DNA of 42,000 bases, from NCBI GenBank assembly GCA_012516935.1, contig JAAYVZ010000219.1, forward strand, positions 1 through 42,000, read 5' to 3'. A program made the position numbers and the translations under genes. The notes below the pieces were generated by a model. It was not told where the DNA came from and made no database searches. It saw only the letters and a list, made by a program, of their open reading frames with translations. This stretch comes from Holophagae bacterium (GTDB lineage: Bacteria > Acidobacteriota > Thermoanaerobaculia > Thermoanaerobaculales > Thermoanaerobaculaceae). Position 1 is the first letter of the stretch, and the number at the start of each line of letters is the position of its first letter. Below, one piece after another: positions 18,245 to 30,412 of the stretch.

Positions 18245-19522
18245 CTACGCCTCGCCGTACAGCGGGAACGCCCGCGTCAGCTCCTCGACCTCGGCCTTGA
18301 CCTGGGTCCACACCGCTTCGTCCTCGCTGCGCAGGACGCGGTCGATGAGGGCGGCGATGCGCTTCATCTCATCGGGACCCATGCCGCGGCTGGTGACTGC
18401 GGGGGTGCCGATGCGGACGCCGGAGCCGATGTACGGCTTGCGGGTGTCGAACGGCACGGTGTTCTTGTTGACCGTGATGCCGGCCCGACCGAGCCGCTCC
18501 TCGGCCTTCTTGCCGGAGATCCCGTCGGCCCCGAGGTTGAGCAGCATGAGGTGGTTGTCGGTGCCGCCCGAGACCATGTTCCAGCCCCGCGCCTGCAGCT
18601 CAGCGCACAGCGTGCGGGCGTTGGCGAGGACGCGGCCGATGTAGTCCTTGTAGGCGGGGGTGAGCGCCTCGGCAAAGGCGACGGCTTTGGCCGCGATGAC
18701 GTGCATGAGCGGGCCGCCCTGGACGCCGGGGAAGACTGCCTTGTCGATCGCCTCGGCGAACTGCGCCTTGCACATCACCATGCCGCCGCGCGGCCCGCGC
18801 AGCGTCTTGTGCGTGGTGGTGGTCACGAACTCGCAGCAGGGCACCGGCGAGGGGTGCATCCCCACCGCCACCATGCCGGCGATGTGGGCAATGTCGGCCA
18901 TGACCATGGAACCCGACTCGTGGGCGATGTCGGCGATGGTCTGGAAGTCGATGATGCGCGGGTAGGCCGAGGCGCCGCAGACGATGAGCTTGGGCTTGTG
19001 CGCCCGGGCGAGGTCACGCAGGGCGTCGTAGTCGATCGTCTCGGTGTCCTTGCGCACGAGGTATGGCACGATCTGGAACGTCTTGCCGGAGTAGTTGAGG
19101 GGGTGGCCGTGGGTAAGGTGCCCGCCGTGCGAGAGGTCCATGCCGAGCACCACGTCGCCCGGCTGGCAGGTGGCGAGGTAGACCGACATGTTGGCCTGGG
19201 CCCCGGAGTGCGGCTGGACGTTGACGTGCTCGGCGCCGAAAAGCTGCTTGGCGCGGTTGCGCGCGAGCTCCTCGGCCACGTCCACGAACTCGCCCCCGCC
19301 GTAGTACCGCTTGCCGGGGTAGCCCTCAGCGTACTTGTTGGTCAACACCGAGCCCAGCGCCGCGAGCACGGCCAGCGACACGAAGTTCTCCGACGCGATG
19401 AGCTCGAGCCCCTCGTTTTCGCGTCGGCGCTCGGCGCGCAGCGCCGCGGCCACCTCGGGATCGGTGGTGCCGACGATGTCCTCTTGGCGGGCGAAGTAGA
19501 TCTTGCGTTCCACCTGGTTCAT
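18245..19522 (-). CDS. glyA: Serine hydroxymethyltransferase
   Basis: PLP-dependent enzyme that interconverts serine and glycine and charges tetrahydrofolate with a one-carbon unit. The 425-residue protein has LIASENFVS (41-49), [16 protein letters not shown] (61-76), the D210/H213 cofactor region ([19 protein letters not shown]) and the Schiff-base lysine K239 in [14 protein letters not shown]. Length is normal. Its ATG overlaps the rpiB stop by four bases (ATGA), and it is the last gene of the five-gene operon before the hairpin at 18179-18201. Sharing a transcript with folC ties it to folate one-carbon metabolism. Confidence 0.97.
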
Positions 19523-19962
19523 TTCGACTCTCCTTTCGGCTCGATGGCCGCGACGCGGCCGGCATGCCGCCCGCCGTCAAAGGGGGTGGCGAGAAAGATC
19601 TCCAGTGCTTGCAGCGCCACCGCCGGGCCGATGGTGCGACCGCCCAGGCACAGCACGTTGGCGTCGTTGTGGCGGCGCGCCATCTCGGCGGTGAGGGCAT
19701 CGTGGCAGAGCGCAGCGCGCACACCGGGGTGGCGGTTGGCGGCGATCGACACGCCGATGCCGGTCCCGCACGCCAGCACGCCGCGCTCACCGTCCCCGGC
19801 CAGAAGCCGGGCCGCGAGGGCGTGGGCGAAGTCGGGATAGTCGACCGGCGCCTGGCCATGGGTGCCGAGGTCGATGACCTCGTGGCCGAGCCCGTGCAAG
19901 CGGGTGACGAGGAGCTGCTTGAGCTCGAACCCCCCGTGGTCGGACGCCACCAAAACCCGCAT
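19519..19962 (-). CDS. rpiB: Ribose-5-phosphate isomerase B
   Basis: A 147-residue RpiB/LacAB-family isomerase that interconverts ribose 5-phosphate and ribulose 5-phosphate. Conserved elements are the SDHGGFELK loop with D8 and H9, the catalytic C65 in [17 protein letters not shown], the CHD segment at 86-88, and [14 protein letters not shown] at 96-109. ATG at 19962 is fixed by the match to the RpiB N-terminus ([11 protein letters not shown]) and overlaps the dgt stop by one base (TGATG). Its own stop overlaps glyA (ATGA). Pairing of rpiB with glyA is common in bacteria. Confidence 0.95.
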
Positions 19963-21320
19963 CACAGCCTCCCGGCCCCCGCGCCGGACAGCGCGCTGTC
20001 GGGATGGTACAACGCCGCGTGTTCCTCGAGTGCGAAGCGGTCCGACATCCCGGCCAAATGGTCGGTGATGAGGCGCACGAAGCGCGGCTCCGTGTGGTAG
20101 TGGGCCTTGACCTCCTCCGGCATTCGCGGGATCGGCAGATCGCGCAGGTACGGCCGTCCGGTCTGCTCGTGGAAGCGCAGCAACGCGTAGGTTGGGAGCG
20201 TCAAGGGATTGGAGAAGTAGGCACGGAACAGCTCGCCCATGACGAGGTGGGCCCGGAAGTCCTGTCGGTTGACCTCTTGGTGGTTGATGATGAAGCGGTA
20301 GATGAACGCCTTGAGCTCGCCGAACAGCTCGTTGACGCGAGACGAGAACGCGGCGAGCGCGGGTGGCAGCTCGTCGGCATGCGCCTGCCACCCGGCGGCG
20401 TCGTTCACGTCGCGCGCCGCCGCCCACTCGGTGACGGCGCGCGAGGTGGTCTGAATGGCGTCGGTCACGAACAGGTGGATGAGCCCGCGCTGCAGCATGG
20501 CGGCGCGGCGCCAGCGCCGCCGCTCGTTGCGGTACTGCTCCCCGAGCTGGCGGATGACGGTCTGGGCGGCGGGGATGTGCTCGATCGCCTCGAGCGTCAC
20601 CGCCTCGGCGTGGAGGCCGTCCTCGAGGTCGTGTGTCTGCTGGGCGATCTCGTCGGCCAGCGCCACCACCTGCCCCTCGAGGTGGCAGGGCAGCCCCAGG
20701 CGCAGCCCCGCGGGCTCCGGCAGGGGGAAGTCGATCCCCGCCTTCTGCGAGGTGTGCTTGAGGATTCCCTCCCGTACCTGGTCGGTGAGGTTGAGCCCGG
20801 GCAGGTCGTAGCGCTGCTCGAGCAGGTCCACGACCCGCACCGACTGGTAGTTGTGCTTGAACGTCCCCACCCGGGGCAGCAGCTCGGCCGGGAGCTGGCA
20901 TTCCGGAGCCTTGCCGGCCAGGATGCGGGCCAGCGAGCGCTCGCCGGAGTGCCCGAACGGGGTGTGGCCGAGGTCGTGCGAGAGGGAGATCGCCTCGACC
21001 AAGTCCTCGTTGAGCCCGAGCGCCCGCGCGATCGTCCGCCCGAGCTGGGCGACCTCGAGGGTGTGGGTGAGGCGGGTGCGGGGGTGGTCGCCGGTGTGCG
21101 GCACGTAAACCTGAGTCTTGTGCTTGAGGCGGCGGAACGCCCGCGAGTGGAGGATGCGGTCGCGGTCGCGCTGGAACGCGGTGCGGTAGTCGAACAGCCG
21201 CCCCTCGGCGGCCAACTCCCGCCGTCGCGTCGCGGTTGTCGCACGGAAGCCGCAGAAGGCCAGCGACGCCTCCTCGCGCCGGTTGAGCTCCTCGTGGTCG
21301 CGGATCACTAGCTCAGCCAT
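19962..21320 (-). CDS. dgt: dGTPase-like HD domain triphosphohydrolase
   Basis: Predicted deoxynucleoside triphosphate triphosphohydrolase of 452 residues. The HD-domain ligands are H86 in RLTHTLEVAQ and H115/D116 in SLSHDLGHTPFGHSGE; the N-terminal RTAFQRDRDRILHSRAFRRLKHKTQV stretch is the other family hallmark. The family hydrolyses dNTPs to the nucleoside and inorganic triphosphate, usually as a hexamer; many members act on several dNTPs under allosteric control. It overlaps folC by eight bases at its start and rpiB by one base at its end, so it is translationally embedded in the accD operon. Substrate preference is not predictable. Confidence 0.92.
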   Translation of the reverse strand: MAELVIRDHEELNRREEASLAFCGFRATTATRRRELAAEGRLFDYRTAFQRDRDRILHSRAFRRLKHKTQVYVPHTGDHPRTRLTHTLEVAQLGRTIARALGLNEDLVEAISLSHDLGHTPFGHSGERSLARILAGKAPECQLPAELLPRVGTFKHNYQSVRVVDLLEQRYDLPGLNLTDQVREGILKHTSQKAGIDFPLPEPAGLRLGLPCHLEGQVVALADEIAQQTHDLEDGLHAEAVTLEAIEHIPAAQTVIRQLGEQYRNERRRWRRAAMLQRGLIHLFVTDAIQTTSRAVTEWAAARDVNDAAGWQAHADELPPALAAFSSRVNELFGELKAFIYRFIINHQEVNRQDFRAHLVMGELFRAYFSNPLTLPTYALLRFHEQTGRPYLRDLPIPRMPEEVKAHYHTEPRFVRLITDHLAGMSDRFALEEHAALYHPDSALSGAGAGRL

Positions 21321-22635
21321 CGAGCCCTCCGGTCAGACGCAACACCTCCCCGACAAGGTACAACGATCCGGTTACGAGGGTCGGCCGCGACCGATCACCG
21401 GCAGCGAGGGCCGCGGCCACGTCGGCTGCCACGGCCGCGCCGGGAAACGCCGCAGCGAGCTCGGCGACCGGCGCCGCGCGCGGCGAAGCGAGCGCCACCA
21501 CCGTCACCCGGCTCACACGGGGCGCAAGAATCGCCGCCATCTCGGCGAGCGGTTTGTCCTGGAGGCACGAGAACAGCAGATCGATCCGTCCGCCGAGCCC
21601 CATCTCGGCGAGCGCCGTCGCCACGGCCAGGGTCGCCTCGCGGTTGTGCGCCCCGTCGAGCAGCAGCGGGCGCCCTTCGTGCTCGACCCACTGCAACCGT
21701 CCCGGCCAGCACACCCCCTCGATGCCACGGAGCAAAGGCTGGTGCTCGAGCCCTGGCACCACCCCGTGCTTCGCCAGCGCCGCCGCTCCCGCCAGCGCCA
21801 GGCGGAGGTTGGGGAGCTGATGCGTCCCGGCCAAAGGCAGCGTCGCCTCGAGTTGGATCGACTCGACAGCGGCAGCGATCCGTGAGCCGGAAAGCGGGGC
21901 TCGGCGCCCGCCCCGCAGGTTGGGAGCTTCCCGATCGACGAATTGACGAGCGCCCCAGCTCGGGGTCTCGAGGTCCGGGCCGTGGGCCAGGAAAGCCACC
22001 TGCGCCCACTCGGAAACGCTGCTGGGCGGGGCTTCGGCATGGGCCCGGATCGCCGGCTCCACCTCGGCGTCCCAGGCAGCGACAATCGCCTCGCGGCCGC
22101 GCAAGGCGGCGGCTTTCTCGGCTGCGATGTGGGCGCGCGTGGGGCCGAGCCAGCCCTGGTGGTCGGTGCCGACGTTGGTGAGCAGCGAGACGATCGGCGT
22201 CACGGCGTTGACCGCGTCCCACCGCCCGCCGAGCCCCGCCTCGAGCACCGCCACCTGGACAGCAGACGCGGCGAAGTGTCGCAACGCCGCGACGGTGAGC
22301 GTCTCGAAGTACGAGAGCTCGGGGTGGGGCGCCAGCTCGCCGACGAGCCGAGCCAGATCGGCCGGGTCGATCGTCCGCCCGTCGACACGGATGCGCTCCT
22401 CGACCCGCACCAGGTGCGGCGAGGTGTACAGGCCGGTCCGGACGCCGTGGGCGCACAGGATGCTCGCCAGCCACGCCGCCGTGGCCCCCTTGCCGTTGGT
22501 GCCGACCACGAGGACCGAGGCGAAGCGCTCGTGGGGGCAGCCGAACGCCTTGAGCACCCGGTGCACGCGCTCGAGGCCGGGGATAATACGTTGCTCGAGG
22601 CGGGGGGCCAGCAGCTCGGCCGCGGAGATGGTCAC
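21313..22635 (-). CDS. folC: Folylpolyglutamate synthase / dihydrofolate synthase
   Basis: A 440-residue Mur-ligase-family enzyme that adds glutamate to (dihydro)folate or dihydropteroate. The ATP loop is VVGTNGKGATAAW and is followed by TSPHLVRVEERIRVDG, the folate-family signature. Further conserved segments are EAGLGGRWDAVNAV, NVGTDHQGWLG and LLLDGAHNREA. The GTG at 22635 overlaps the accD stop (GTGA) and is preferred over the longer frame from 22653. The accD-folC pairing is a recurrent bacterial arrangement. From sequence I cannot tell whether it has both activities or only one. Confidence 0.93.
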   Translation of the reverse strand: MTISAAELLAPRLEQRIIPGLERVHRVLKAFGCPHERFASVLVVGTNGKGATAAWLASILCAHGVRTGLYTSPHLVRVEERIRVDGRTIDPADLARLVGELAPHPELSYFETLTVAALRHFAASAVQVAVLEAGLGGRWDAVNAVTPIVSLLTNVGTDHQGWLGPTRAHIAAEKAAALRGREAIVAAWDAEVEPAIRAHAEAPPSSVSEWAQVAFLAHGPDLETPSWGARQFVDREAPNLRGGRRAPLSGSRIAAAVESIQLEATLPLAGTHQLPNLRLALAGAAALAKHGVVPGLEHQPLLRGIEGVCWPGRLQWVEHEGRPLLLDGAHNREATLAVATALAEMGLGGRIDLLFSCLQDKPLAEMAAILAPRVSRVTVVALASPRAAPVAELAAAFPGAAVAADVAAALAAGDRSRPTLVTGSLYLVGEVLRLTGGLDG

Positions 22636-23453
22636 AGCAACAGGCCGAGGCACCGGGCCAGGGTATCCTTGAGCTCCCGCCGCGGCACCACCAGGTCGAG
22701 CAGCCCATGCTCGAGCAAGAACTCGGAGCGCTGGAAACCCTCGGGGAGCTTCTGGCGAATGGTCTGCTCGATGACTCGCGGCCCGGCAAAGCCGATGAGC
22801 GCGCCCGGCTCACCGATGTTGATGTCACCGAGCATCGAGTACGAGGCGGTAACCCCACCGGTGGTCGGGTCGGTGAGGACCGAGATGTACGGCAGCCTCG
22901 CCTTGTGCAGCCGCGCCAAAGCTGCCGAGATCTTGGCCATCTGCATGAGGGAGAGCACGCCCTCCTGCATACGAGCGCCGCCCGAGCACGAGACGATGAC
23001 GAGCGGCAGGCGGAGCTTGACGCTGCGCTCGATGGCGCGGGTGAGCTTCTCGCCCACCGCCGAGCCCATCGACCCGCCCATGAACCCGTACTCCATGGCG
23101 CCGACGATCGCCTTGACCCCGCCGATGCGGCCCAACGCCACGACCACGGCATCATCGCGCAGCCCGCGCTCGAACAGGCCCTGGAGGCGGTCCGCATACG
23201 GCTTGTTGTCGACGAACTCCAGCGGGTCGGTCGAAAAGATCTTGGAGAACAGCTCCTTGTACGAACCGCCGTCGAAGAGCTGGCCGAGCCGTGTGCGCGC
23301 AGCGATGCGGTGGTGAAACCCGCACCTCGGGCAGACATGGAGGTGGTGCTCGAGCTCCTTGTGGTAAAGGGTCTCCTTGCACCCCGCGCACTTCACCCAC
23401 AGCCCCTCGGGGATACGGGACTCGTGGGAGCGATCCGAGCGCCAGAACCACAT
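22632..23453 (-). CDS. accD: Acetyl-CoA carboxylase carboxyltransferase subunit beta
   Basis: Beta subunit of the carboxyltransferase that transfers CO2 from carboxybiotin to acetyl-CoA in the first step of fatty acid synthesis. The 273-residue protein begins with a four-cysteine zinc ribbon (C22, C25, C41, C44) and continues with the crotonase-like domain, showing AMEYGFMGGSMGSAVGEKL, VSCSGGARMQEG and DPTTGGVTAS. It is the first gene of a five-gene operon with folC, dgt, rpiB and glyA. The promoter candidate at 23462-23490 ends only eight bases before the ATG. The divergent neighbour is the acyl-CoA ligase operon. Confidence 0.97.
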   Translation of the reverse strand: MWFWRSDRSHESRIPEGLWVKCAGCKETLYHKELEHHLHVCPRCGFHHRIAARTRLGQLFDGGSYKELFSKIFSTDPLEFVDNKPYADRLQGLFERGLRDDAVVVALGRIGGVKAIVGAMEYGFMGGSMGSAVGEKLTRAIERSVKLRLPLVIVSCSGGARMQEGVLSLMQMAKISAALARLHKARLPYISVLTDPTTGGVTASYSMLGDINIGEPGALIGFAGPRVIEQTIRQKLPEGFQRSEFLLEHGLLDLVVPRRELKDTLARCLGLLL

Positions 23454-23590: not shown

Positions 23591-25336
23591 ATGGCGAGGT
23601 GTGAGGAGAGCTCGAGAGCCAATGTCCGCGAAGTGCGGCCGTGGCTCGCCCACTACGAGCCGAGCGTCCGGCCTCACCTCGACTATCGCCAAGGTCGTCT
23701 CGGCGATTTGTTGCCCGAGGCTCGACGCCGTTTCCCAGCCCGGGTGGCAGTGGTGTTCTCGGTGGCCGCCGGCGGGAGGCTGTACTCGTCGTCCCTCAGC
23801 TACACCCGGCTGCAAAGGCTGGTGAACGGCTTCGCCGCCTCCCTGCAGCGCTTGGGCGTGCGCAAGGGCGACCGGGTCGCGCTGCTGCTTCCGAACTGCC
23901 CCCAGTTCGTTGTTGCCTACCTAGCGACCCTGGTGGTGGGTGGGATCGCCGTGCCGTTCAACCCTCTCTACTCGGCGCGCGAGGTCGGGTACCAGCTCCA
24001 GGACTGCGGCGCCAGGGTCGTGGTCGCGCTCAGTCAGCTCTACCCCCTGGTCCAGCAGGTGCGCGCCCAGACGGAGGTCGAAACCGTAGTCGTCACGCGC
24101 ATCAAGGAGTACTTCCCTCCGCTTTTGCGGCTGTTGTTCACCCTCACCCGGGAGCGAAGGCTGCCGTCGGCGCCGTTGGCCGCAGGAGATCTCGAGCTTG
24201 GGCCGTTGCTCCGCTCCTCGTCGCCGCAGCCCGTGGCGGTCGAGCCGGAGGACACAGCGGTTCTGCTCTACACGGGTGGGACCACGGGGGTGTCCAAAGG
24301 CGTCGAGCTCTCCCACCGCAACCTGCTGGTCAACGCCGAACAAAACCGCGTCTGGGCCCACCTCGCCGATGGAGCGGAGACGGTGCTGGCTGCGGTGCCG
24401 CTGTTTCACGCCTTTGGCCTGACGTGCTGCCTCAACCTCGGCCTCATGACCGGCGCCACGCTGGTGCTGGTGCCCAACCCGACCGACACGCGCGGCCTCG
24501 TCCGGTCCATCCACCGGCACCGGCCGAGCGTTTTTCCGGTCGTGCCGACGTTTCTGGTGGCGATCACGAGCCTGCCGGACCTCGACCGCTACGACCTACG
24601 CTCGATCCGAGTCTGCCCGTGCGCTGGCAACCCCCTGGCCCCGGCGGTGCAGCGCGGTTTCTGGGCCCGGACCGGCGTGCGGCCGGTCGAGGGGTATGGG
24701 CTCACCGAGGCGTCGCCGGTGGTCATGGGAAACCCGCCGTTCGGCGACGACCGCCAGGGCACGGTCGGTCTGCCGTACCCCGATACCGTGGCTCGGCTCG
24801 TCGATCTCGAGACCGGCCAGCGCCTCGTGCCGTGGCCCGAGGGCAGCGACTGGACCTCGCCCGGGGAGCTCGTCGTGCGCGGCCCGCAGGTGATGAAAGG
24901 GTATTGGAGGCGACCGGAAGAGACGGCAGCGCAGCTACGCGACGGCTGGTTGCACACCGGTGACATCGCGCAAATGCACCGGGACGGGTACTTCCGCATC
25001 GTTGACCGCAAGAAGGATATGATCATCCGTAGCGGCATGAACATCTACCCGGCGGAGATCGAGGCGGTGCTGCTCGAACACTCCGGGATCCTGGAAGCGC
25101 TGGTCATCGGCGTTCCGGACGAGACCCGCGGCGAGCTGGTGAAGGCGTTCGTCGTCCCGCGCCACGCGGTGACGCTCGCGGTCGAGGATATCCTCGCCTT
25201 TTGCCGGGAGAATCTCGCGCGGTTCAAGGTGCCGGCCACGGTCGAGATCCGGCGTGAGCTGCCCAAATCCGCGGTGGGTAAGCCGCTGCGGCGCGCGCTC
25301 CGCGACGAGGTGGCGGCACCGGCGGCCCAGCAGTGA
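23591..25336 (+). CDS. Long-chain acyl-CoA ligase (FadD-like AMP-binding enzyme)
   Basis: ANL-superfamily enzyme of 581 residues that would activate a carboxylic acid, probably a fatty acid, to its CoA thioester via an acyl-adenylate. Core motifs are LLYTGGTTGVSKGVELSH (about 226-243), VEGYGLTEASP, the LHTGDIAQMHRDGYFRIVDRKKDMIIRSG hinge region (about 454-482) and the catalytic lysine K564 in KSAVGKPLRR. The N-terminal PWLAHYEPSVRPHLDY opening and the NPLYSAREVGYQLQDCGA segment are typical of FadD-type ligases and less so of OleC beta-lactone synthetases. ATG 23591 is preceded by GGGAG. Its stop overlaps the next gene's GTG (GTGA). It heads a four-gene operon and probably supplies acyl-CoA to the condensing enzyme downstream. 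Confidence 0.9.
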   Translation: MARCEESSRANVREVRPWLAHYEPSVRPHLDYRQGRLGDLLPEARRRFPARVAVVFSVAAGGRLYSSSLSYTRLQRLVNGFAASLQRLGVRKGDRVALLLPNCPQFVVAYLATLVVGGIAVPFNPLYSAREVGYQLQDCGARVVVALSQLYPLVQQVRAQTEVETVVVTRIKEYFPPLLRLLFTLTRERRLPSAPLAAGDLELGPLLRSSSPQPVAVEPEDTAVLLYTGGTTGVSKGVELSHRNLLVNAEQNRVWAHLADGAETVLAAVPLFHAFGLTCCLNLGLMTGATLVLVPNPTDTRGLVRSIHRHRPSVFPVVPTFLVAITSLPDLDRYDLRSIRVCPCAGNPLAPAVQRGFWARTGVRPVEGYGLTEASPVVMGNPPFGDDRQGTVGLPYPDTVARLVDLETGQRLVPWPEGSDWTSPGELVVRGPQVMKGYWRRPEETAAQLRDGWLHTGDIAQMHRDGYFRIVDRKKDMIIRSGMNIYPAEIEAVLLEHSGILEALVIGVPDETRGELVKAFVVPRHAVTLAVEDILAFCRENLARFKVPATVEIRRELPKSAVGKPLRRALRDEVAAPAAQQ

Positions 25337-26349
25337 CGGCTCCTTCGCCCGGCACCACGGCGCTGGTCACCGGCGCGACCGGATTCGTCGGCTCCCGGGT
25401 GGTACGCGTGCTGGCCAGGCATGGCGTGCGGGTGCGGGTCCTTTCGCGCCGCCCGGACACGGCGCGGCGCCTGGCTCCGCCCGGGGTCGAGGTCGTAGCG
25501 GGCGATCTGGCCGATCCGGCGTCGCTGCGAGCCGCCGTCACCGCCCGGGAGCTCGTGATCCATGCGGCTGCCCGGGTCTCCGACTGGGGGCCGCGTAGCG
25601 CTTTCTGGGACAGTAACGTTGAGGGCGTGGCCAATCTCCTCGACGCCTGCCGCGAAGCCGGTGTGCGGCGGCTCGTTCACCTCAGCTCTCTCACCGTGCT
25701 GGGGCTGCCCCGCGACGGCAGGGTCGTCGACGAGTGCTCGCCGGTCGCCACTCCCGCACCGGGCGATCACTACAGCGCGAGCAAGCTTGCGGGCGAGCGC
25801 CTGGTGCAGGAGGCGCACGGCAGCGCCGGTCTCGAGACCACGGTGGTGCGCCCGGGTGCCATCTGGGGGCCCGGCGACCCCAACGTCCTGCCGCGGGTTC
25901 TCGCCCTGCTGCGACGCGGCACCATGCCGGTGATCGATCGCGGCGACAACGTGCTCGGTCTCTCGCACGTCGACAACCTCGCACCGGGGATCGTGCTCGC
26001 CGCCGGGGCGCCGGCGGCGGCCGGGCGGCTCTACCACCTTACCGATGGCGAGGAAGTCACCGCCCTGCAGGCGCTCACGATGCTGGCCGCGGCGCTCCGG
26101 GTACCGCCACCGCGGAGGTCGGTGCCGTACGGAGCGATCTACGCTGTGGCGGCGCTCGTCGAGGGCCTCGCGCGCCTGTTCCGACGCTCATCCGCGCCGC
26201 CTCTCTCCCGCTACGGTGTGCGCTTCGTCGCCTGCCACTGCCGGTACGATATCTCGAGAGCGCGCAGGGAGCTGGGATACGCGCCGAGGATCACGTTCGT
26301 CGACGGGGTTCGGGGCTTGCGACTCGCTTCCGCCGGGGGGCCGGAGTGA
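25333..26349 (+). CDS. OleD-like NAD(P)-dependent reductase (3-beta-HSD/epimerase family)
   Basis: Extended SDR of 338 residues. The dinucleotide motif is TGATGFVGS (13-21), and the active-site Y147 and K151 lie in HYSASK. HAAARVSDWGPRSAFWDSNVEGVANLLDACREAG matches the 3-beta-hydroxysteroid dehydrogenase/OleD branch. In olefin-type pathways OleD reduces the 2-alkyl-3-keto acid made by the OleA condensing enzyme; that role fits here because a KAS III-like enzyme follows directly. It overlaps both neighbours by four bases (GTGA at each junction), so the ligase, reductase and synthase are translated as a unit. An alternative is a sugar or sterol-like substrate, which the operon context makes less likely. 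Confidence 0.82.
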   Translation: MTAPSPGTTALVTGATGFVGSRVVRVLARHGVRVRVLSRRPDTARRLAPPGVEVVAGDLADPASLRAAVTARELVIHAAARVSDWGPRSAFWDSNVEGVANLLDACREAGVRRLVHLSSLTVLGLPRDGRVVDECSPVATPAPGDHYSASKLAGERLVQEAHGSAGLETTVVRPGAIWGPGDPNVLPRVLALLRRGTMPVIDRGDNVLGLSHVDNLAPGIVLAAGAPAAAGRLYHLTDGEEVTALQALTMLAAALRVPPPRRSVPYGAIYAVAALVEGLARLFRRSSAPPLSRYGVRFVACHCRYDISRARRELGYAPRITFVDGVRGLRLASAGGPE

Positions 26350-27401
26350 AGGTCAAGATCGAGAGCCTCGGGGTTTGTCTGCCGGAGAAGGCGATGACCA
26401 CCGAGGATCTCCTCTCGTGCTGTCGCCGGAGGCCCCGTCTCGACCTCGAGCGCATCACCGGTATCCGTGAGCGGCGCGTGGCGGAGGGGAAGTACGCCGT
26501 CGACCTCGCCGTCGCCGCCGCCCGACGGGCGCTGGCGATGTCGCGGTATCGGCCGGAGGAGCTCGGTGCCATCATCTGCACCAGCATCTCGAAGCACAAC
26601 CGGCCGGACGAGTTCGACCTCGAACCGGCCACCGCGGTGCGCATCGCCGGAGCGATCGGAGCCTCGCGGGCGCTGGCGTTCGACGTTGTCAACGCGTGCG
26701 CCGGGATGATCACCGGGATCTGGGTGCTCGAGGGGCTGATCAGAGCCGGGGTGGTGGCAACGGGGATGGTGGTGAGCGGCGAGCACAACCTCCCGGTCGT
26801 CTGGACCGCAACCCGGGAGGTTCGCCACAGCCTCGACCGCCAGCTCGCCGCCCTGACGCTCGGCGACGCGGGCGCCGCCCTCATCCTCGACCACTCGGAG
26901 GACGAGCGCGTGGGGTTCCACGTCCTCGACCTCGTGACCGGGGCCAAACACGACCACTACTGCACGTCGCGTCCCTCGGCGCGAGGACCCGGAGGCATGC
27001 TCCTGACCAAGGCCAGAGGTCTCCAGATCAAGGGGAACCAGCACTTCCCAGCCTACCTCAAGCAGGCTCTGGACCGCACCGGCTGGACGCTCGACGACGT
27101 GAACCACCTCATCCCGCATCAGGTCTCCGTGCGGGCGATCCGTAAGGGAGTCCAGGCGGTCGAGGCGTATCTCGGCCGCGAGCTTCCCGGAATCGTGCGC
27201 TGCCGGGCCGAGCGCTTCGGAAACACGACTTCGACCAGCCACTTCGTGGTCCTGCACGAGCTTTTGCGCACGGGGGAGGCGAAGGCGGGCGACAACCTGC
27301 TGCTGGTGGGCGGTGCCTCGGGGATCGTGATCGCACACGCGACCTTGACGCTCGACGATCTGCCGGAGCGGTACCGGGCAGGCCTCGACGGAGGACGGTG
27401 A
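26346..27401 (+). CDS. KAS III-like condensing enzyme with intact triad
   Basis: Thiolase-fold enzyme of 351 residues related to FabH/OleA. The catalytic set is complete: C118 in VVNACAGMITG, H258 in LIPHQVSVRAI and N293 in RFGNTTSTSHF. LTLGDAGAALIL near 170-181 is another FabH-type signature. It would take an acyl group from CoA or ACP onto the cysteine and condense it with a second acyl unit. The ligase and reductase upstream suggest an OleA-like head-to-head or a beta-ketoacyl condensation rather than ordinary fatty acid initiation. GTG 26346 overlaps the reductase stop. One base separates its stop from the next gene, a shorter homologue lacking the triad. Confidence 0.88.
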   Translation: MKVKIESLGVCLPEKAMTTEDLLSCCRRRPRLDLERITGIRERRVAEGKYAVDLAVAAARRALAMSRYRPEELGAIICTSISKHNRPDEFDLEPATAVRIAGAIGASRALAFDVVNACAGMITGIWVLEGLIRAGVVATGMVVSGEHNLPVVWTATREVRHSLDRQLAALTLGDAGAALILDHSEDERVGFHVLDLVTGAKHDHYCTSRPSARGPGGMLLTKARGLQIKGNQHFPAYLKQALDRTGWTLDDVNHLIPHQVSVRAIRKGVQAVEAYLGRELPGIVRCRAERFGNTTSTSHFVVLHELLRTGEAKAGDNLLLVGGASGIVIAHATLTLDDLPERYRAGLDGGR

Positions 27402-27402
27402 G

Positions 27403-28284
27403 ATGCGCCGGTGTCGAATCGAGAGCTTGGGCGTCAGTCTGCCGCGGCGCCGGTTGCGGCGGTGGGGCTCGGTGCGCCACGCGGTCGAGGCGGGGCGGCG
27501 TTGCCTAGCGGCTTCGCACTACCGTCCGGGCGATGTCGAGGTGCTGGTGAACACCGGGGTGTACCGCGACCGCCACACCTGCGAGCCGGCGATGGCCTGT
27601 TACATCCAGCATCGGCTCGGCATCAACGTCGAGTTCCAGGGGCGCCGGACGGCGTCGTTTGACCTCCTCGACGGTGGGGTCGGAATGCTCTCGGCGGCCC
27701 AGGTCCTGGCAGCGCTGGTGGCGAGCGGTGCGGCAAGCGTGGGGATGATCGTGGCCAGCGACGCCAACTCCGACCGGCAGCCTGATCCCGGATACACCTA
27801 CCCGGCAAGCGGGGCGGCGGCGCTGCTGGACATCTCACCCCGAGCCGACGTGGGGTTCGGCGGCTTCGCCTTCGAAACGCTGTCGGATCGCGCTGATCTT
27901 TACACCGGTGGGGTGTCGCTGGCCCACCGACGCGGGCGCGTCATGCTCCGCCGTCGCGCCGGGCTCGAGGAGGCCTTTCTCGAAGCCGCGACATCGGCGG
28001 TGGCGGCTGTTCTGGAGCGCGAGAGAACGCTTCGGAAAGACGTCGACTTCGTGGTGCCGGCCCAGATCTCACCGAGCTTCGTGGGGCGGCTCCCGGCAGC
28101 GATCTCGTTCCCGCGCCACAAGGTTTTGGACCTCACCGAGACGATGGCGGATACGCTATCCACCTCGCTCTTCCTGGCGCTGCACCAGGCCCTGCGCGGC
28201 GGGCTCGTCGAACCGGGGAAGGTGGTTTTGCTCGTCGCCTGTGGCTCGGGTATCACCGCTGGCGCAGCCCTCTACCGCGTCTGA
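27403..28284 (+). CDS. KAS III-like protein lacking all catalytic residues
   Basis: This 293-residue homologue follows the active synthase after a one-base gap. It opens with the same IESLGVSLPRR strand and keeps the FDLLDGGVGMLSAA, FVVPAQISPSF and TMADTLSTSLF segments that align to the three active-site blocks. At these positions Cys118 becomes Gly92, His258 becomes Ala220 and Asn293 becomes Asp250. It is about 55 residues shorter and lacks part of the N-terminal region. The frame is intact, with a good Shine-Dalgarno (GGAGG) upstream, so it looks maintained rather than decayed. By analogy with PqsB/PqsC and with KS-alpha/KS-beta pairs, it probably forms a heterodimer with the active enzyme and shapes its substrate pocket. 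That partnership is inference. Confidence 0.8.
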   Translation: MRRCRIESLGVSLPRRRLRRWGSVRHAVEAGRRCLAASHYRPGDVEVLVNTGVYRDRHTCEPAMACYIQHRLGINVEFQGRRTASFDLLDGGVGMLSAAQVLAALVASGAASVGMIVASDANSDRQPDPGYTYPASGAAALLDISPRADVGFGGFAFETLSDRADLYTGGVSLAHRRGRVMLRRRAGLEEAFLEAATSAVAAVLERERTLRKDVDFVVPAQISPSFVGRLPAAISFPRHKVLDLTETMADTLSTSLFLALHQALRGGLVEPGKVVLLVACGSGITAGAALYRV

Positions 28285-28383: not shown

Positions 28384-28520
28384 CAGCCGAGGGAAGGGAG
28401 TGCGATGCTCCCGCCGCCCCGCGACTGTGATCGGGACGAAAGCCGCAGCGGTGCCACTGTCCGGATGGATGGGAAGGCGCGGCGAGTAGGACGAACGAGA
28501 GCCAGGAGACCTGGCTGGGC
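28384..28520 (+). promoter_or_regulatory. Cobalamin (B12) riboswitch
   Basis: Conserved B12-box elements occur in order: GGGAAGGGAGTGCGATGCTCC at the 5' side, CCGCCCCGCGACTGTGATCGGG (28422-28443 region), AAAGCCGCAGCGGTGCCACTGT, GGGAAGGCGCGGCGAGTAGGACGAACGAGAGCCAGGAGACCTGGC ending near 28516. A hairpin TTCCCC/GGGGAA (28539-28554) overlaps the Shine-Dalgarno (GGGAAAGGAGA) of the receptor gene, so control is probably at translation initiation, with B12 repressing expression. Boundaries are approximate. Confidence 0.93.
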
Positions 28521-28564
28521 GACACGGTTTTGCAGTGCTTCCCCGCGGGGGGAAAGGAGACCGC

Positions 28565-30412
28565 ATGAAGCCTTCGTTGCTGTTTCTCGCCATTTTGGCC
28601 GCCGGCGTCGTCACCGCCCAGCCGGTGCCTCCCACCAGGTCGCAGCCGTTCAGCGAGGAGATCGTCGTCACCGCCAACGCCGTGCCCACCGAGGCCACCG
28701 CCGTGGGCTCGAGCGTCACCGTGCTGACGCACGAGGACATCGTCGCGCGCGGCACCGCATCGGTGGTCGAGCTGCTGCGAGGTGTGCCCGGCCTCGAGAT
28801 CGTGCAGGGTGGCGGGCCGGGCTCCAACGCCAGCATCTTCCTGCGCGGCTCGAGCTCCTCGCACACGCTGGTGCTCGTGGACGGCGTGAGGATCAACGCC
28901 CCGACGAGCGGCGCGGTGGACTTCGCGGACCTGCGGGCGGACCAGATCGAGCGCATCGAGGTGCTGCGCGGGCCGCAAAGCTCGCTCTACGGCTCCGAGG
29001 CGATGGGCGGCGTGATCAGCATCATCACCCGGCGCGGGAGCCAGGGGCTCGGGGCCAGGGTCTCCGGCGAGAGTGGGTCGCTGGGTTTCGGGCGCTGGGG
29101 AGCGAGCGCGGAGGGCGGCGGCCAACGGCTCGACTGGCAGGTGAGCGGCGGACGCGAGCGGTGGGACGGGGTCTCGGTGGCCAGTGAGCGGGCAGGCAAC
29201 CGCGAGCGCGACTTCTACCGAAACGCCTCCGGCGCGGCGCTTGTCGGTGTCCGGCTCGGGGCGCACAGCCGCCTCCAGGCGTCGTGGCGGGGCCAGGACG
29301 CGACCGCCGCGCTGGATGGGTTCACCTGGGGCGTGGGACCGACCGACGACCCCAACTTCGAGCAGACGCGGCGCGCCCAGACGGTCGCGCTGTCGTTCGA
29401 GACCCAGGTCACCGACCGGTGGCGGCAGCTCGTGCGCACGGGGGCGTACGACGAGCGGCTGCGCGGCCGCGATCCCGACACCGAGTACAACCGCTACGAC
29501 ATCTCCAACCGCAACGTCGACCTCCTGCTGCGGTCCGACCTGCAGCTCGGACGCCACCATATGCTCTCCGCGGGCGCCAGTGCCGAGCGTCGCGACGGCG
29601 AGGTCGATGGCGGGTTCGACGAGAGGGTCGACTTGCGATCGGCGTTCGCCAGCAGCCAGTGGAGCTGGGGCGACCGGGGAGCGGTGACCGCCGCGGTGCG
29701 TTACGACCACCACTCCGTGTTCGGCGGCGCGACGACCTACCGTGCCACCGGTGTGCTGGGGCTCGGCTCGGGGGCGAGGCTGCACGCCTCGTGGGGTACC
29801 GGGTTCAAGGCCCCCACCTTCAACGACCTCTACTTCCCCTACTACGGCAACCCACACCTGGGAGCCGAGACGAGCCGAGGCTGGGACGCCGGCCTGGCCT
29901 GGGACGACCCCAAATCTGGGCTGAGCGCCGATCTGACGGTGTTCGGAAGCCGCTACGACGACCTCATCGCCTTCTCGTGGACGAGCTTCGTGGCCGAGAA
30001 CATCGCCCGCGCCGAGGCCCGGGGCTGGGAGGCCGCGGTCGGGCTCAGGACGGGGCCGACGGTGACATGGCGGGCAGCCTACACGCGCACCGAGAGCGAG
30101 GACCTCGAGAGCGGCTCCCCCCCGCCCCGGCGCCCGCGGCACCGGGGCTCGCTCGCCGCCACGGTGGGGGGTGACGGCCCTCTCTCGGGCAGCGCCACGT
30201 ACTGGGTGGTGCGTGACCGCGTCGAGTCCGACGGAACACCGATGGACGACTACGCCCGGCTCGACGTGGCGGCACGGTTCCGGCTCGCCCGCCGGCTCGA
30301 CGCCACGGTACGGGTGGAAAACGCCCTCGACGAGGACTACGAGGAGCTCACGGGCTACACCTCCCCTGGTCGCACCTTCGCGGTCGGAGTCATCGTGCAC
30401 CTGGAACGGTAG
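28565..30412 (+). CDS. btuB: BtuB-like TonB-dependent cobalamin receptor
   Basis: Outer-membrane receptor of 615 residues. The signal peptide is MKPSLLFLAILAAGVVTA (1-18), followed by a TonB box EEIVVTA (31-37). A plug domain follows with TASVVELLRGVPGLEIVQGGG, IFLRGSSSSHTLVLVDG and IERIEVLRGPQSSLYGSEAMGGVISIITRRG. The remainder is a 22-strand-type barrel with repeated amphipathic strands. B12 is the likely ligand because the gene is directly behind a cobalamin riboswitch. ATG 28565 is preceded by GGAAAGGAGA. No inner-membrane B12 importer (btuCDF) or tonB gene is in the window. The terminal residues (VGVIVHLER) are less aromatic than the usual barrel C-terminus. Confidence 0.92.
   Translation: MKPSLLFLAILAAGVVTAQPVPPTRSQPFSEEIVVTANAVPTEATAVGSSVTVLTHEDIVARGTASVVELLRGVPGLEIVQGGGPGSNASIFLRGSSSSHTLVLVDGVRINAPTSGAVDFADLRADQIERIEVLRGPQSSLYGSEAMGGVISIITRRGSQGLGARVSGESGSLGFGRWGASAEGGGQRLDWQVSGGRERWDGVSVASERAGNRERDFYRNASGAALVGVRLGAHSRLQASWRGQDATAALDGFTWGVGPTDDPNFEQTRRAQTVALSFETQVTDRWRQLVRTGAYDERLRGRDPDTEYNRYDISNRNVDLLLRSDLQLGRHHMLSAGASAERRDGEVDGGFDERVDLRSAFASSQWSWGDRGAVTAAVRYDHHSVFGGATTYRATGVLGLGSGARLHASWGTGFKAPTFNDLYFPYYGNPHLGAETSRGWDAGLAWDDPKSGLSADLTVFGSRYDDLIAFSWTSFVAENIARAEARGWEAAVGLRTGPTVTWRAAYTRTESEDLESGSPPPRRPRHRGSLAATVGGDGPLSGSATYWVVRDRVESDGTPMDDYARLDVAARFRLARRLDATVRVENALDEDYEELTGYTSPGRTFAVGVIVHLER

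Follow-up and report, generated by a model that had tools for sequence, protein, structure and literature searches.

Organization of the cassette

The cassette comprises four open reading frames (ORFs) on the plus strand at 23591-28284 of the window, the 42,000-nucleotide stretch of DNA analysed here. The first gene, P0001 (23591..25336, 581 aa), encodes a FadD-type long-chain acyl-CoA ligase and is followed by P0002 (25333..26349, 338 aa, GTG start), an OleD/LstD-like SDR and presumed 2-alkyl-3-ketoacid reductase. The last two genes encode KAS III proteins, namely P0003 (26346..27401, 351 aa, GTG start), assigned as the LstA-type active subunit (A), and P0004 (27403..28284, 293 aa), assigned as its LstB-type partner (B). 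Genes 1 and 2 as well as genes 2 and 3 overlap by four bases (gtga), and gene 4 starts one base past the stop codon of gene 3 (tga g atg); the ORF check thus returned the same coordinates, overlaps and one-base gap as the initial annotation. Because the identical gene order recurs in other phyla, the arrangement is far above chance.

Upstream lies accD (22632-23453), on the strand opposite to the cassette and starting at 23453. Downstream there is a cobalamin riboswitch (28390-28512), directly followed by a BtuB-like TonB-dependent receptor (28390-30412 for the two together). With these flanks the cassette is limited to four genes and ends at 28284. Promoter and terminator scans at the operon gave nothing convincing. 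At its start (positions 1-592), the window holds the last part of a 23S rRNA gene together with a 5S rRNA gene.

Active site, constraint and fold of the KAS III pair

Both synthases belong to the ACP_syn_III family. P0003 has the complete triad of Cys118, His258 and Asn293, and in P0004 the same positions are occupied by Gly92, Ala220 and Asp250, exactly as first annotated; the positions align between the two proteins and with Escherichia coli FabH and Xanthomonas campestris OleA. Two features had not been mentioned before. P0004 lacks about 30 residues past the first strand, and an OleA-type Glu-Pro motif is retained in both subunits, as Glu93-Pro94 in P0003 and Glu61-Pro62 in P0004 (codons at 27583..27588, plus strand). 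Glu93 of P0003 falls on OleA Glu117, 26 residues ahead of OleA Cys143, in the phmmer as well as the MAFFT alignment, and Glu61 of P0004, the proposed cross-interface catalytic base, aligns with both OleA Glu117 and LstB Glu60. The Glu-Pro motif was kept in 18/18 A and 19/19 B proteins aligned, and all three triad residues were lost in every one of the 19 B proteins. The simplest reading of this pattern is that the partner has been retained to supply the base. Since P0003 keeps Glu93 too, an A homodimer is also possible by sequence.

Among close homologues, the dN/dS of B was 0.13-0.29, similar to that of A. This identifies the inactive member of the proposed active/inactive pair as a protein under purifying selection, and P0004 as a pseudogene or a gene under relaxed constraint was rejected on the same values. 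The predicted structure of P0004 alone (pLDDT 69.6) has a clear KAS III fold with a poor N-terminal part, and its VIA comparison with FabH2 gave a Z score of 23.4 and an rmsd of 3.1 over 247 residues. The VIA list also includes PqsBC chains (Z 22.2-22.6), level with FabH chains, and in PDB sequence searches with P0004 no PqsBC chain was found among the matches listed.

Relationship to known condensing enzymes

Lipstatin, a Streptomyces toxytricini product and the precursor of an anti-obesity drug, contains a reactive ring, and in a 2019 study LstA and LstB reportedly proved to be an obligate KAS III heterodimer. LstA and LstB of lipstatin biosynthesis form a KAS III heterodimer, and a ligase and a reductase are encoded in the same operon (PMC12141560, PMC7064751). 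LstA and LstB are each insoluble alone, the variants LstA C128A, LstA H271A and LstB E60A are all inactive, and LstA N305A gives no soluble complex (PMC12141560). LstB Glu60 probably acts as the base abstracting the alpha proton. The proposed heterodimer was called previously undescribed in the initial annotation, but LstA/LstB are already of the same kind.

The LstA-like protein of S. globosus has Cys128, His271 and Asn305 and the LstB-like one has Glu60; these residue numbers match exactly those reported for LstA and LstB. On Streptomyces and Rhodococcus plasmids the genes stand in the lipstatin-type order of A, B, CoA ligase, epimerase/reductase, NRPS and formyltransferase. In a maximum-likelihood tree the A proteins and LstA formed one group (96/92) and the B proteins and LstB another (100/99), with the X. 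campestris OleA fragment, E. coli FabH and two KAS III proteins of the same genome as the window outside both; some branches are long and the branching order between the groups is unsure. Identity to the lst-operon proteins is modest, 38-39% for the LstA-like and 27-32% for the LstB-like proteins. By sequence, the P0003/P0004 pair belongs to the LstA/LstB type, with which it shares adjacent genes, a large Cys-His-Asn subunit, a small triad-less subunit with the catalytic Glu and a reductase of the same family. The cassette differs from the lst operon in gene order (ligase-reductase-A-B vs. A-B-C-D-E-F), in having a FadD-type ligase where LstC is of the OleC class, and in missing the NRPS and the formyltransferase. 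It is a new combination of an LstAB-type pair, an OleD/LstD-like reductase and a FadD-type ligase without a lactone-forming enzyme, found in phyla far from Streptomyces.

The KS-alpha/KS-beta (CLF) enzymes of type II PKS are also an active/inactive condensing pair, but of the KAS II type, decarboxylative and acting on ACP-bound substrates, and their likeness to P0003/P0004 is an analogy only. PqsBC of alkylquinolone synthesis is closer, being a KAS III heterodimer in which one subunit lacks the triad. The initial comparison with these two systems was right about the active/inactive pair; it is looser than the match to LstAB, because here the "inactive" subunit keeps a catalytic Glu. PqsB lacks the entire triad and is described as a scaffold, PqsBC mimics a FabH homodimer, and PqsC has a Cys-His dyad and lacks the Asn (PMC4807248); by analogy, P0004 could be a mere scaffold and P0003 alone catalytic, perhaps decarboxylative, leading to a ketone or a signal molecule. 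We find this improbable in view of Asn293 in P0003, the OleA/LstB Glu kept in every P0004 homologue and the OleD/LstD-like reductase present in the operon. Membership in PqsBC, which also has other substrates and neighbours, was rejected on the same Asn.

In OleA, the active site of each monomer uses Glu117 of the other as its base, and Glu-Pro occupies this position in almost every OleA protein (PMC7064751). Shared with OleA and OleD of the head-to-head olefin pathway are this motif together with Cys-His-Asn in P0003, a ketoreductase and, as we infer, condensation without decarboxylation. OleA differs in being a homodimer from one gene; A of the window type has B beside it in every examined locus uncut by a contig end. 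By analogy with these enzymes P0004 most likely supplies its Glu61 as a base to the P0003 active site, an assignment that rests on the mutation data for LstB.

Ligase, reductase and the search for an OleC-class enzyme

The coupling of the KAS III pair to an acyl-CoA ligase as well as to a reductase of OleD-like type was borne out. P0001 contains AMP-binding domains (PF00501/PF13193), and its best NCBIfam match is PRK05605 (498 bits). It is 39% identical to E. coli FadD vs. 24-28% to LstC, and in the phylogeny suggested for comparing it with the OleC and FadD families it groups with FadD (clade support 98/98), separate from LstC. For P0002, which carries GATGFVG and YSASK motifs, the best NCBIfam model is OleD at 203 bits, under the equivalog cut-off of 580; LstD proteins, to which it is 33-42% identical, likewise score under this cut-off (209-228 bits).

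Against a cut-off of 478 bits in the OleC-class model, P0001 scored 127 bits and two LstC proteins 592-616 bits. No gene of the genome, which is 98% complete, scored above the cut-off, the best reaching 137 bits, in agreement with the absence of an OleC-type beta-lactone synthetase noted earlier. A beta-lactone step is therefore not expected, unless the gene lies in the missing part, which may be about 2% of the genome. In this respect, and in P0002 being below the OleD equivalog cut-off, the system differs from the OleABCD pathway. An Ole pathway elsewhere in the genome was rejected as a candidate, the OleC-class model having given sub-cut-off matches only.

Another cluster of the same genome (C123; L075, 1241-8924) comprises alpha/beta hydrolases, a thiolase, an acyl-CoA ligase, an SDR and a KAS III; this KAS III has the Cys, and Thr and Tyr replace His and Asn. 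Conceivably, an ole or beta-lactone pathway is complete and its missing enzyme is encoded elsewhere in the genome. In favour are the ligase of this cluster, which has its best score with the OleC-class model, and the hydrolases and KAS III beside it. Still, that best score is the 137 bits mentioned above, far from those of LstC, and the KAS III is without His and Asn, so that this scenario appears very improbable.

Linkage, natural fusions and distribution

Homologues of B with 51-61% identity lie directly behind A in two Myxococcota, four Aminicenantes, one Acidobacteriota and one Smithellaceae MAG (L054 and L061, 22978 bases each, look like one contig and were counted once), and further ones in additional genomes of Acidobacteriota. 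A survey of 396 acidobacterial genomes revealed A in five, with B beside A in 5/5; one genome had a full B without A, starting at base 4 of its contig, and another a fragment at a contig end. On plasmids, the same 13 records hold A and B (13/13). The proposed co-occurrence of the inactive gene directly after the active one was thus constant, as A and B were together in every examined locus uncut by a contig end. The distances of A and B are correlated (r 0.94-0.98), which fits joint inheritance of the pair, although a shared operon alone would give the same.

In the Smithellaceae MAG (L053, 4223-8669), A and B form a single ORF of 669 residues; an acetyl-CoA hydrolase/transferase family gene is found upstream of the reductase, where the ligase would stand. 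Genome G201 of the Acidobacteriota has a distant A-B pair as the C-terminus of an NRPS that also contains C, A and carrier domains, with a PKS ahead. The fusions are known from one contig each, so an assembly error is possible, but they support, indirectly, a physical partnership of A and B. The predicted model of a natural A-B fusion, P0005, has a pLDDT of 52.5 and a pTM of 0.46, its A half being without an alignment.

A search of the genus and family with P0004 gave only distant matches of the full-length KAS III type (about 30% or less). The glyA-dgt-folC-accD block (18245-23453 in the window) is conserved in the family, and the cassette sits at a break in this order; three relatives with enough sequence keep the block and do not have the cassette behind accD, and in a genome of the same genus the contig stops soon past accD. 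The lack of a cassette in the nearest relatives and its patchy occurrence across phyla suggest that it was gained by horizontal transfer. By GC content the operon is not set apart.

Proposed pathway and product

We consider it highly probable that P0003 and P0004 form an obligate heterodimer of the LstA/LstB type that catalyses an OleA-like Claisen condensation without decarboxylation, coupled to ligase supply and to reduction by P0002. P0001 would make acyl-CoA, from which P0003 would load one acyl chain on Cys118, and Glu61 of P0004 would reach across the interface to deprotonate an acyl group at its alpha position. Attack of the resulting enolate on a second acyl thioester would join two fatty acids head to head and yield a 2-alkyl-3-keto acid, to be reduced by P0002 to a 2-alkyl-3-hydroxy fatty acid. 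Without a beta-lactone synthetase, this acid, whether free, CoA-bound or esterified, would be the likely end product.

The same heterodimer could operate with the ligase last, activating the 2-alkyl-3-hydroxy acid as a CoA ester to be passed on to a lipid or glycan, much like mycolic acids, while acyl-CoA comes from general metabolism. The FadD-type nature of the ligase fits this order, and several loci keep A-B and the reductase without a ligase, so the latter seems dispensable for condensation. On the other hand, the cassette holds no acyltransferase, and the acetyl-CoA hydrolase/transferase in the ligase place in the Smithellaceae MAG fits supply as well as activation; we regard a ligase acting last as rather unlikely.

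If the LstA/LstB-type heterodimer with a supplying ligase is correct, a "dead" subunit bringing the catalytic base, so far detailed only for lipstatin, extends to uncultured lineages of several phyla, and the LstAB-type mechanism here stands apart from the making of a beta-lactone. How selection keeps a pseudoenzyme is open to direct mutational tests through the fused form and the conserved Glu, and the likely branched hydroxy fatty acid could be sought in lipid extracts. More speculatively, a horizontally moved cassette widespread in Acidobacteriota, Aminicenantes, Myxococcota and relatives might produce mycolate-like 2-alkyl-3-hydroxy structural lipids through an LstAB-type heterodimer. To our knowledge, mycolate-like fatty acids of this kind have not been assigned to these phyla.

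The product may vary between loci, as the ligase or the reductase is absent nearby in L049, L052, L053 and the Rhodococcus plasmids. In G201 (L057, 219-11502) a PKS with AT-DH-ER-KR-ACP domains precedes the NRPS, whose C-A-PCP module ends in the LstA-like and LstB-like didomain; the latter perhaps performs a chain-releasing head-to-head condensation. In L049 (5495-9937) the A-B pair is located beside ArsA-type ATPase genes, with neither ligase nor reductase in the locus, and on three Rhodococcus plasmids (L077, L080 and L081) A-B has no accompanying ligase or NRPS and lies close to genes for universal stress, CBS-domain and wax ester synthase proteins.
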